Part shown: piece after piece, positions 17,372 to 19,631 of the stretch
How the letters are laid out: every line of letters begins with the position of its first letter
How positions within the stretch are numbered: position 1 is the first letter of the stretch
Assembly (NCBI GenBank): GCA_017886545.1
Contig: JAGHJS010000039.1
Span: forward strand, 1 to 57,631
DNA from: Clostridia bacterium
GTDB taxonomy: Bacteria; Bacillota; Clostridia; Christensenellales; Borkfalkiaceae
DNA: 57,631 nt
Reading direction: 5' to 3'
Program-made: the position numbers and the translations under genes
The notes under the pieces: generated by a model
Seen by the model: only the letters and a program-made list of their open reading frames with translations
Databases searched by the model: none
What the model was told of the DNA's origin: nothing

Positions 17372-17660
17372 ATCGAAACTCTCCATAAAGCCGAAAACGC
17401 GCCCTTCCGTTTACGGAAAAACGAAAGAACGCTTTTTTTACCACCAAAACGTACAGCCATACGCCCCCTTTGGTAACGCGGGGGAAAAGACCGCGCGCAA
17501 AACTACTGTTCCCCTGCGGGGGGGGGGGGGAAGTTCGCCCTGCGGGCTGGGAGGGGATACCGACGCATCGCCCGAACGCCGCCTTTCACCTTGCGCGGCT
17601 CTCTTTCGGAACGGGGCATATGCGCGGCGCGTCCTCCGTCGGCGCCGTATCATACTGCCC
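17372..17660 (-). ncRNA. T-box riboswitch-like leader of ileS
   Basis: About 290-nt leader between a strong promoter and ileS. On the minus strand the stem I signature AGAGAG (17599-17604), an intervening stem and GGTGAAA (17584-17590) is present. An ATC codon (Ile specifier, 17556-17558) follows in a GGTATCCCC context. GGTGGTA (17439-17445) resembles the conserved T-box sequence but lacks the usual ACCGCG tail, so the antiterminator is degenerate or unusual. A run of 13 C residues in the RNA (17518-17530) separates the two halves. Confidence 0.6.
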
Positions 17661-17662
17661 CT

Positions 17663-17691
17663 ATTTTACCAAGTGCGGCGGCATTTGTAAA
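17663..17691 (-). promoter_or_regulatory. ileS promoter
   Basis: TTTACA (17686-17691), 17-nt spacer, TAAAAT (17663-17668) on the minus strand, directly upstream of the T-box-like leader. Confidence 0.8.
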
Positions 17692-17719
17692 GTATTTTTA
17701 AAGCCGCGGGGCAAAAAGG

Positions 17720-17745
17720 TTCACGCGTTTCGCGCACAAGGGTGT
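17720..17745 (+). other. Possible stub of a further structured-RNA copy
   Basis: TTCACGC followed by a CGCGCA-AG stretch resembles the 5' end of unit B at 18109 but breaks off after about 22 nt, immediately before unit A. Confidence 0.35.
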
Positions 17746-17969
17746 TCACGAAAAAAGTTTTGAAAGAGACAAAACTTTTTTCCGTGATTGGAGAGACAAC
17801 CGAATGTTCGCCGCGGCAAAGCGCGGCTCTGCATTTGGTTTTCTCTTTTTGCGCGATCTTTAAGGGCTTCCCCTATTAAAAAATCGCGCAAATTCACTCT
17901 TTCCGAATTGAGCCGCAGGTATGCGGCAAATTGGGGGCGCTTTTCCAAAGGCGTGGCTTTGGAACGCGC
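17746..17969 (+). ncRNA. Structured RNA element, unit A (HEARO/omega-RNA-like)
   Basis: Five hairpins in order: H1 arms 17751-17762/17770-17781 closed by CACG/CGTG; H2 99-106/132-139 (of 17700) with inner GCCGCG/CGCGGC and a TCTG bulge; H3 17851-17857/17883-17889; H4 17906-17916/17923-17932; H5 17943-17950/17957-17964 with loop GCGTGG. Linkers CCGTGATT, GAGACA, AAATTCAC and GGGG recur in unit B although the stems differ. The plus strand is drawn; its transcription is not proven. It covers a 95-codon minus-strand reading frame that I regard as spurious. Confidence 0.65.
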
Positions 17970-17988
17970 GATTTGATTATCAAAAAGA

Positions 17989-18010
17989 TTCACACAAATC
18001 TCGCGCAAAC
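17989..18010 (+). other. Truncated 5' end of a third structured-RNA copy
   Basis: TTCACAC followed by AAATCTCGCGCAAAC matches the first ~22 nt of unit B (18109) with a few changes; the rest of the element is missing and the MATE 3' fragment follows. Confidence 0.4.
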
Positions 18011-18012
18011 AA

Positions 18013-18105
18013 TCATGCGCCCTCCTCCGCCGTTTTTTTGCCGCCGCGCCTCTTCCCCTTATAAAATTTCAGGCACAGCGCGCCGCAGACGGCGGTAAGG
18101 GCTTC
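18013..18105 (-). pseudogene. Remnant 3' end of a MATE transporter gene
   Basis: Thirty codons ending in TGA at 18013 read EALTAVCGALCLKFYKGKR and a short Lys/Glu tail. The first 15 or so residues match the C-terminus of the intact MATE gene (EALTAVCGALCLRFYKK) with one change. The match breaks at 18105-18108, exactly where the structured RNA unit B begins. It is either a leftover of a second MATE gene or a copy of the 3' end carried with the element. Confidence 0.7.
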
Positions 18106-18108
18106 GCG

Positions 18109-18323
18109 TTCACGCATTCCTCGCGCAAAGGCGCTGCGGAATGCCGTGATTTTGAGGGAGACACCATTGTCCGCGGCTTTTTGCCGCTCTGCAATGGTTT
18201 CTCCGCTCTTTCCGCCCTCTTTTAGGGCTACGTATTATAGAACGGGCGGAAATTCACCCTCTTCCGTCACGCTTTTTATAAAGCGTAAGGGGCAAAAGGC
18301 AAAAGCGTGGTTTTGCCTTTTGC
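18109..18323 (+). ncRNA. Structured RNA element, unit B (HEARO/omega-RNA-like)
   Basis: Same architecture as unit A with different paired bases. H1 is CACGCATTCC against GGAATGC-C-GTG. H2 is GGAGA-CA-CCATTG against CAATGG-TT-TCTCC with inner GCGGC/GCCGC and TCTG. H3 is TCCGCCC/GGGCGGA (18211-18217, 18244-18250). H4 is ACGCTTT/AAAGCGT (18269-18275, 18280-18286). H5 is a 13-bp stem 18292-18304/18311-18323 with loop GCGTGG. It sits between the MATE gene stop and a duplicated MATE 3' end. There is no open reading frame for a nuclease or transposase nearby. Confidence 0.65.
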
Positions 18324-18326
18324 TAT

Positions 18327-19631
18327 TTATTTTTTATAAAACCTTAAACACAGCGCGCCGCAGACGGCGGTGAGGGCTTCGGCGGCGGGGAAGGCGAGCC
18401 ACAGCCCGATCGCGCCCCACAGCGCCGCGAAGCCGAAGGCGAGCGGGATGACGGCGACCAGCCCGCGCAGAAGAGACAGCCCCTGCGAAGGCAGCGCGCG
18501 GTCCGTAGAGGCGAAGCACGCGCATACCGCCATGTTGAACCCCGCAAAGGGCATGCCGATAAAGTACAGCCGCAGCCCCTCCGCGGCGGTGGAAAGCAGC
18601 GCGGGATCGTTTTCGCTGTTGAAGACCTGTGCGAGCGGCTCCGCAAAGAAAAAGACGGCGGCATAGACCGCGACGGCAATGAGCACGGCGGCGGAAGCCG
18701 CGTACAGCAGCAGGCGCCGCACGTCCGCACGCCTGTCCTCGCCCTGCGCGCGGCTCATCAGCGGCTGCGTGCCCTGCGAAACGCCCGTAAAGACGGAGAT
18801 GACGACCAGCGCGACGTTCGCGACCACGCCGTACGCCGCCACGCCCGTGTTGCCCGCGATGCCGTAGACGATCGCGTTGAACGCGAGCATGACCGCCGCG
18901 TTGGAGAGCTGTTCGACGAAGGAGGAGAACCCGAGCGAGAAACAGCCCTTTGCATACTCCGCGCGGAAGGGCGCCTTTACGGCGCGGAACCTGCACTTGC
19001 CGCCGATGAAATGCAGGCAGGACACGCCGATGCCGATGACGGGCGCGAGGCAGGTGGCGAACACTGCGCCGAACATGCCCATCGCGCAGGGGAAGATGAA
19101 CACCCAGTCTAAAAGGATATTCGACAGGCTGCCGCTGACGGTGGAGAACATCGCCAGCTGCGGACGGCCGTCGTTGCGGACGAACGCCGCGAGCACGTTG
19201 TTCAGCAAAAAGGCGGGCGAGAACAGCAAGAGCGTCTGCAGATAGGTGCGCGTCATCCCGTATGTGTCCGCGTCCGCGCCGAGAAGGGTCGCCAGCTGCC
19301 CCGGGAAGAGCGCGCCCAAAAGCACGAAGGGCACGCAGAAGACCGCCGTAAGATACAGCGTGTTGGTGAACGCCTCGTTCGCGCGGCGCTCCTCCCCGCC
19401 GCTGCGCAAAAGCGCGTACTTCGTGGCGCCGCCCACGCCGAGCATCAGCCCGATACCGTTGATGACGCTGTACACGGGCACGGCGAGGTTGAGCGCCGCC
19501 AGCCCGTTTTTGCCCAGCCCGAGGGAGACAAAAAAAGTATCCGCCAGAATGTAGCAGGACATGCCCACCATTCCCAAAACGCTCAGCGACGCATACCGCG
19601 CAAAGGTTCTGAAAAGCGCCGAGTTTTTCAT
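18327..19631 (-). CDS. MATE-family multidrug/organic cation antiporter
   Basis: 434 aa inner-membrane exporter with about twelve hydrophobic segments in two similar halves, as expected for MATE (DinF/NorM) proteins. The typical early motif GMVGMSCYILADTFFVSLGLG is split by this family's variable residues, and PLMSRAQGE appears in the second half. The ATG at 19631 is preceded by TTCCTCC (GGAGGA) at 6-7 nt. A strong promoter lies 130 nt upstream, and an intrinsic terminator sits between promoter and ribosome site, so attenuation is possible. The last 15 codons are duplicated beyond the adjacent structured RNA (18013-18105). Confidence 0.9.
   Translation of the reverse strand: MKNSALFRTFARYASLSVLGMVGMSCYILADTFFVSLGLGKNGLAALNLAVPVYSVINGIGLMLGVGGATKYALLRSGGEERRANEAFTNTLYLTAVFCVPFVLLGALFPGQLATLLGADADTYGMTRTYLQTLLLFSPAFLLNNVLAAFVRNDGRPQLAMFSTVSGSLSNILLDWVFIFPCAMGMFGAVFATCLAPVIGIGVSCLHFIGGKCRFRAVKAPFRAEYAKGCFSLGFSSFVEQLSNAAVMLAFNAIVYGIAGNTGVAAYGVVANVALVVISVFTGVSQGTQPLMSRAQGEDRRADVRRLLLYAASAAVLIAVAVYAAVFFFAEPLAQVFNSENDPALLSTAAEGLRLYFIGMPFAGFNMAVCACFASTDRALPSQGLSLLRGLVAVIPLAFGFAALWGAIGLWLAFPAAEALTAVCGALCLRFYKK

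Follow-up and report, generated by a model that had tools for sequence, protein, structure and literature searches.

The spacer between ileS and a MATE transporter gene in the window (the whole 57,631-nucleotide stretch of DNA from a Clostridia bacterium that was analysed here) is occupied by two units, A and B, each made of five hairpins which follow in the same order and share almost no sequence in their stems. This raises the question of whether the units are structured RNAs or copies of a DNA that moves. The original prediction likened them to HEARO, the guide-scaffold RNA of IscB transposons, and read their covariation as selection on RNA structure; it also allowed for non-autonomous copies or an undescribed family, and non-autonomous copies are what the present analysis supports. 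We consider, with a probability of roughly 0.6, that A and B are copies of a small non-autonomous mobile DNA element which is probably mobilised by an activity supplied in trans. They apparently belong to a large and undescribed family of mobile repeats in uncultured Clostridia.

Units A and B in the window

The units, with the stems and linkers that had been quoted for them, are present in the sequence, the truncated heads reported at 17720 and 17989 are real, and there is indeed no nuclease gene between ileS and MATE (Table 1). Unit A has a predicted fold of -103.3 kcal/mol (z -8.7) and unit B one of -106.3 kcal/mol (z -9.9), which is far better than shuffled sequence, as 0 of 200 dinucleotide shuffles equalled either. 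The minus strand of unit B folds comparably (z -8.9), and the strand can therefore not be picked from folding. Unit B is flanked by two copies, 88% identical, of a 48-nt stretch from the 3' end of the MATE gene, and unit A adjoins what looks like the ileS promoter. Heads such as those at 17720 and 17989 may be remnants of an older P1 beside a newly placed one.

Table 1. Features of the ileS-MATE spacer and its borders (positions in the window)
Feature	Position	Strand	Basis or remark
ileS, end of start codon	17386	-	score above NCBIfam cut-off
Truncated P1 head, 5' arm only	17720..17740	+	repeat family D2
Unit A (class A)	17745..17981	+	TTCAC start at 17745; sequence, fold, alignment; helix limits by eye
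Unit A, P1	17745-17787	+	
Unit A, P2	about 17790-17847	+	
Unit A, P3	17848-17892	+	
Unit A, linker	17893-17904	+	TTCACTCTTTCC
Unit A, P4	about 17905-17933	+	
Unit A, P5	about 17937-17969	+	
Unit A, tail		+	GATTATC
Unit A, covariance-model match	17848-17981		
Truncated P1 head	17989..18009	+	joined directly to other DNA; repeat family D2
48-nt target duplication, left copy	18059..18106	.	MATE gene 3' end; repeat family D1
Unit B (class B)	18109..18333	+	TTCAC start at 18109; sequence, fold, alignment; helix limits by eye
Unit B, P1	18109-18149	+	
Unit B, P2	about 18154-18208	+	
Unit B, P3	18209-18252	+	
Unit B, linker	18253-18265	+	TTCACCCTCTTCC
Unit B, P4	about 18266-18288	+	
Unit B, P5	about 18290-18324	+	
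Unit B, tail		+	TATTTATTTT
Unit B, covariance-model match	18209-18334		
MATE gene, stop codon	18327-18329	-	within unit B tail; MatE above Pfam cut-off
48-nt target duplication, right copy	18334..18381	.	inside MATE reading frame; repeat family D1

The source genome bin (G000; 2.06 Mb, 91 contigs, 85% complete) contains another ileS start (L100, G000:C69:1-2000), the protein of which is 97% identical to that of the window and which has a different set of TTCAC heads ahead of unit A. This second copy represents either a strain mixture or a duplication.

The ileS leader was considered as the source of A and B and rejected, as it is separate (approximately 17400-17700) and is conserved in those of the relatives examined whose spacer, over the stretch covered, contains neither unit. 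This leader (17400-17700, minus strand) looks T-box-like; Rfam gave no T-box match in the window or in the ileS loci of six relatives.

HEARO (RF02033), or another omega-RNA-like scaffold RNA of IscB transposons, had been proposed from a resemblance, and the likeness is one of multi-hairpin layout only. With the gathering threshold, neither this model nor any other of Rfam matched the window or 20 additional loci (13 of them selected because they contain elements), and relaxing the limit to E<=10 for 17380-18420 also gave no match. The IscB domain PF14239 scored above cut-off in one of 40 genomes of the genus (G020) and is missing from the source genome; it was found in 0 of 14 control genomes, so this profile has no positive control. 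The probability of a HEARO-like RNA is in our view negligible.

Size, distribution and anatomy of the family

Unit B used as a BLAST query gave 54 matches in the source genome, some of which are self-matches of hairpin arms on the opposite strand. A covariance model covering P3-linker-P4-P5, built from the 32 of 34 extractions that passed a stem filter, gave 85 matches there among the best 87 candidates scored. The search of related genomes that the original prediction had proposed found the family in 36 of the 40 genomes of the genus, the source included, with 0 to at least 87 matches in each (best 87 candidates scored); the four genomes with zero copies are G002, G005, G046 and G052. At the family level 20 of 101 genomes, from 4 of 18 genera, had covariance-model matches, and at the order level, under stricter filters and with the best 11 candidates per genome, 18 of 297 genomes did so, from 7 of 125 genera. 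Three genomes from other families (G210, G029 and G388, from f14, f6 and f16 respectively) carry multiple copies with, by eye, the same P2-P3-linker-P4-P5 layout; their linkers are of the type TTCACCC..TTTCC and the P5 tip is near AAAAGCGYGGTTTT, with stems that are unrelated.

A pattern scan of genome contigs returned 57 stretches, 54 of which come from MAGs of uncultured Clostridia or Firmicutes; the other three (Psychrobacter, Heimdallarchaeota and Oryzomonas) were taken as chance from their titles alone. Plasmids and phages gave no match to a 595-bp query from the window, and the sole pattern match among viral contigs (L217) was judged to be chance after its sequence was read. The literature searched, with the terms used, gave no prior description of a five-hairpin repeat family, which together with the lack of an Rfam match supports the earlier suggestion that the family is undescribed.

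Units are approximately 215-240 bp long, and sequences and alignments place TTCACG at the left end and an AT-rich tail at the other. P1 has an unpaired C on its 3' side, the 3' strand of P2 is rich in pyrimidines, and P3 has a loop of ~22 nt that is kept within the genus and is followed by the unpaired linker, P4 and P5. These modules fall into discrete types and are exchanged, as is seen between species at shared gene edges where P4 is swapped and the remainder kept (L119/L122), or P1 (L011/L178) or P2 to P4 (L013/L194) is swapped. Partial copies that retain only the P5 end are common. Co-variation between P2 and the linker was also considered. In 77 of 212 units (against a shuffled mean of 56.9 and maximum of 67) the linker 5-mer recurs in the 3' strand of that unit's P2, and in 48 of 212 (shuffled mean 20.0, maximum 33) its complement recurs in the P2 5' region, although this may be the signal of only a few lineages.

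Several variant arrangements were observed. One sub-family (L016, L123, L125, L129, L133) is longer by ~120-130 nt at the P2/P3 boundary, where it has additional hairpins, and L060 is a tandem array in which a 120-137 bp stretch plus the element recurs as near-identical copies. Elements of G051 (L275, L281, L282, L329) often adjoin another hairpin repeat, AAGCCTTCCCC..GGGGAAGG, sometimes on both sides. At L005 and L210, repeated fragments which by eye resemble the 3' end of a spore-protein gene are followed directly by TTCACG.

Dispersal and target duplications

The family is dispersed, and sites are occupied in one species and empty in another. The stretches examined of the ileS-MATE spacer in G009 and G051 contain neither A nor B, and those examined in the relatives L071 and L073 contain a single copy of the 48-nt MATE stretch and no element; the source genome has one whole extra unit compared with G042 at a site present in both. 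Near-identical copies are present on different contigs in G051 (L281/L283, 97.7%; L274/L279, 96.7%) and in G045 (L250/L252, 97.2%), and their identity begins at TTCACG and extends into the tail.

Flanking direct repeats scoring at least 20 were found for 14 of 268 complete units, compared with 4 of 5328 shuffled flank pairs. Ten of the 14 were set aside (L060 twice, L121, L135, L153, L251, L281, L282, L304 and L329) because they involve tandem copies, element sequence or other repeats, and four are therefore counted as clean duplications of unique host DNA, 32-79 bp long. Besides the 48-nt duplication around unit B these are L287 in G054 (79/79 bp, over the start of era), L022 in G022 (62/62 bp, over the end of fusA) and L031 (32/32 bp). 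The era and fusA pieces owe their names to partial matches that score below the NCBIfam cut-offs for whole proteins, and the EF-G domains are above the Pfam cut-offs. The freshest-looking insertion, L022, has no close donor in its own 85%-complete genome, where the next best match is 86% over 65 nt. This, and the small number of clean duplications, speak against a mobile element.

Target duplication is a feature of the classical MITE that is also found here, the duplications in the four units being long and variable (79, 62, 48 and 32 bp). A classical MITE also has terminal inverted repeats shared with a resident insertion sequence. The ends of dispersed single units, TTCACG and the AT-rich tail, are by eye not inverted, which counts against a mobile element, but tail-to-tail pairs such as L024 do have P1 at both ends.

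Placement at gene edges

The element is placed with a clear polarity. Its P1 end is at a gene edge for 172 of 222 cluster ends (126 at most 15 nt after a same-strand stop codon, and 46 at most 27 nt from where a divergent gene that has a ribosome-binding site begins) and its tail for 17 of 143, counted at the outer ends of element clusters with gene calls that are open-frame heuristics. With one element per left-flank cluster, for the 150 of 158 clusters that had enough flank, P1 was at a gene edge in 114 of 150, compared with 72 of 804 random positions in the same loci. Element-free spacers have a median of 112.5 nt after the stop, and uniform insertion would therefore place 8.5% within 15 nt of it. 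There is no single target gene, since the 92 upstream proteins form 71 clusters. Several copies in G210 begin, by eye, at or inside the stop codon that closes the upstream gene.

A position directly behind stop codons could mean a role in the mRNA, which speaks against a mobile element and for a functional structured RNA, such as a 3'-UTR or leader element, that is selected at the RNA level. The strong predicted folds of A and B, and a linker and P5 tip that are kept across families of the order, are consistent with such an RNA. It fits poorly with the copies found in antisense orientation shortly before start codons (33 of the 150 left flanks counted as independent), with a copy number that varies from 0 to at least 87 inside one genus, and with stems and whole modules that differ between species at the same site. 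The base pairs of the stems bear on the same alternative.

Covariation in the stems

P3 stems were retained with at least 7 of 10 Watson-Crick pairs, a filter which treats G.T and A.C alike and drops the stems below it uncounted. The 196 unique P3 stems contain 1839 Watson-Crick pairs, 14 G.T, 14 A.C and 93 others (46 at the last position), and the 149 P1 stems 1118 Watson-Crick pairs, 6 G.T, 9 A.C and 59 others (54 at one position). At nine P3 pairs in the alignment of 32 copies, 66 changed cells are both-sided versus 1 that is one-sided. The ileS leader of the same genus was used as an RNA control (24 of 31 loci kept, 7 being without anchors) and gave 839 Watson-Crick pairs, 51 G-U and 12 A-C, with a lean to G-U because RNAalifold, which accepts G-U, chose the helices. 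Distinct P3 and P1 stems together have 20 G.T to 22 A.C, against 51:12 in this control (Fisher p 0.0006). Six tRNAs, as a second RNA control, gave 7 G-U and 1 A-C, too few for use.

As G.T is not in excess of A.C in P1 and P3, the covariation of these stems points to DNA and not, as the original prediction had held, to selection on RNA structure. The matching changes look more like DNA-level copying than a working RNA, and we infer that the stems matter, or arise, as DNA. P5 has more G.T than A.C (123 versus 34; 49 versus 30 when distinct, by an automatic parse in which loop bases are possibly included), and this hairpin may therefore still have an RNA role. Selection on RNA is thus a weakened reading, kept alive by P5 and by the placement beside transcripts, and we regard it as decidedly unlikely.

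Template switching in DNA replication is a published route to such paired changes, in which one hairpin arm can be written from the other (PMC8794818). The process was described there for RNA genes and explains how both sides of a pair can change with no G-U step in between, so that the stem stays perfect (PMC8794818); here it is proposed to act on an interspersed repeat. A transposition intermediate in the form of a folded single DNA strand would affect the stems in the same way.

Template switching could also account for the family as a whole, by passive spread and mixing with no dedicated transposase: the nascent strand would switch to another copy where the two match briefly and then return, the hairpins acting as stall points. 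This agrees with the module swaps and nested heads at sites shared across species (L011/L178, L013/L194, L119/L122), with left joints of which some are at short A/G runs (in L011 an old head, TTCACGAAAAAAG, is followed by a new TTCACG), with P1 and P3 arms that are nearly all Watson-Crick, and with a source genome that has no Y1, RVT_1 or DDE_Tnp_1 match. On the other hand, the reproducible ends (TTCAC versus the AT-rich tail), the strong one-sided preference for gene edges and the at least 87 scored copies in one genome all suggest a specific activity, and we consider passive spread unlikely.

Search for a mobilising activity

Profiles for Y1, RVT_1, DDE_Tnp_1, TnpB and IscB were searched against the 40 genomes of the genus, which are incomplete MAGs. 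No mobiliser was found with these five profiles, which counts against a mobile element, and none of the five candidates is supported. Y1_Tnp (PF01797) is present in 23 of the 40. Among the 12 genomes with at least 42 copies, it had no match in seven (G000, G001, G009, G042, G048, G051 and G055) and was found in five (G008, G013, G016, G018 and, below cut-off, G012). All four copy-free genomes (G002, G005, G046 and G052) have it, and it is absent from G022 and G054, the hosts of two exact long duplications. RVT_1 (PF00078) was detected in 4 of 40 genomes and in 0 of the 12 with at least 42 copies, with one match in G054 (the 79-bp case) and none in G022 (the 62-bp case). The mobile-element reading is slightly weakened because five high-copy genomes have Y1 and G054 has RVT_1. 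An IS1634-type derivative is not supported either, since DDE_Tnp_1 (PF01609), the family of the IS1634 transposases, was found in 0 of 40 genomes and 9 of 14 control genomes were positive. A TnpB omega-RNA element is likewise not supported, as PF07282 was above cut-off in G010 only (1 of 40) and the source genome had two sub-threshold matches.

Y1 enzymes read DNA hairpins, and the unpaired base of P1 and the small hairpin loops resemble the hairpins that they read. Movement by a Y1 transposase, as for a REP/BIME-like element or one derived from IS200/IS605, would also agree with the occurrence of Y1_Tnp in 23 of 40 genomes, including the high-copy G013, G016, G018 and G008. It is hard to reconcile with the seven high-copy genomes (42 to at least 87 copies each) in which no Y1_Tnp was found, with the absence of Y1_Tnp from G022 and G054 and its presence in every copy-free genome, or with the long target duplications, which misfit such an enzyme. 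This alternative is largely refuted and scarcely credible.

In a retroposon, target-primed reverse transcription at a nick would copy an RNA whose 3' end is at P1, and would leave long variable duplications and heads truncated beyond P1. The one-sided target preference, the long variable duplications, isolated P1 heads such as those at 17720 and 17989, and the one RVT_1 match in G054 are consistent with this process. However, RVT_1 is confined to 4 of 40 genus genomes, with 0 of 12 high-copy genomes and not G022 among them (all incomplete), and partial copies reduced to the P5 end are likewise frequent, so that we think a retroposon very unlikely.

Comparison with known repeats

REP and BIME sequences are extragenic DNA palindromes near 3' ends and are associated with RAYT. 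The family described here likewise consists of extragenic DNA palindromes near 3' ends, but has five different hairpins, about 215 nt in total, and 7 of 12 high-copy genomes gave no Y1 match.

The pneumococcal BOX, RUP and SPRITE sequences are small interspersed repeats with many copies (PMC3049150). That study describes BOX as a composite of exchangeable modules that is predicted to fold when transcribed, and reports that, of 58 coding sequences overlapping BOX, 36 do so at the 3' end (PMC3049150). Exchangeable modules at many intergenic sites are also found in our family, a likeness of architecture. Our family differs in its five hairpins, whose stems are exchanged, in a linker and a P5 tip that are kept across the order, in the polarity of P1 toward gene edges, and in long target duplications. 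The best-supported placement is closest in kind to BOX-like repeats, with a different anatomy, insertion mark and target.

Long, variable-length duplications are shared with IS1549/IS1634, which generate direct repeats of 8-514 bp on insertion (PMC2266710), and for which no mechanistic model had been proposed at that date. Those elements carry a transposase and terminal inverted repeats, whereas here there is no gene and DDE_Tnp_1 was found in 0 of 40 genomes.

Proposed mechanism and implications

We propose that the non-autonomous mobile element, in the order P1, P2, P3, unpaired linker (TTCACCCTCTTCC in unit B), P4, P5 and AT-rich tail, inserts so that its P1 end comes to lie just outside a gene, either behind a stop codon or, where a divergent gene follows, shortly before its ribosome-binding site. 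Some insertions duplicate a long segment of host DNA of variable length (32-79 bp where the duplicated sequence is unique). The element may pass through a folded single strand that is recognised by some enzyme, or template switching may rewrite each arm again and again with the other as its template. An activity supplied in trans probably moves the element. Its link to gene edges might reflect nicks at the boundaries of transcription or translation, for example at the edges of R-loops, which is speculation.

We put forward more tentatively, with the odds leaning against it, the broader reading that this is an order-wide type of mobile DNA without known relatives, which has five hairpins, can fold as a single strand, is inserted by one defined end where translated DNA begins or ends, makes long variable duplications, needs no Y1, RT, TnpB, IscB or DDE_Tnp_1, and keeps its stems perfect because each arm can be copied from its partner.

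The family provides an example of textbook covariation, of the kind commonly read as proof that an RNA is functional, which for most stems seems to be derived from DNA, and the count of G.T against A.C is a simple test that others can use. If insertion at gene edges, with long duplications and no known transposase, is true, it would also point to an undescribed route of insertion in a large order of uncultured Clostridia.
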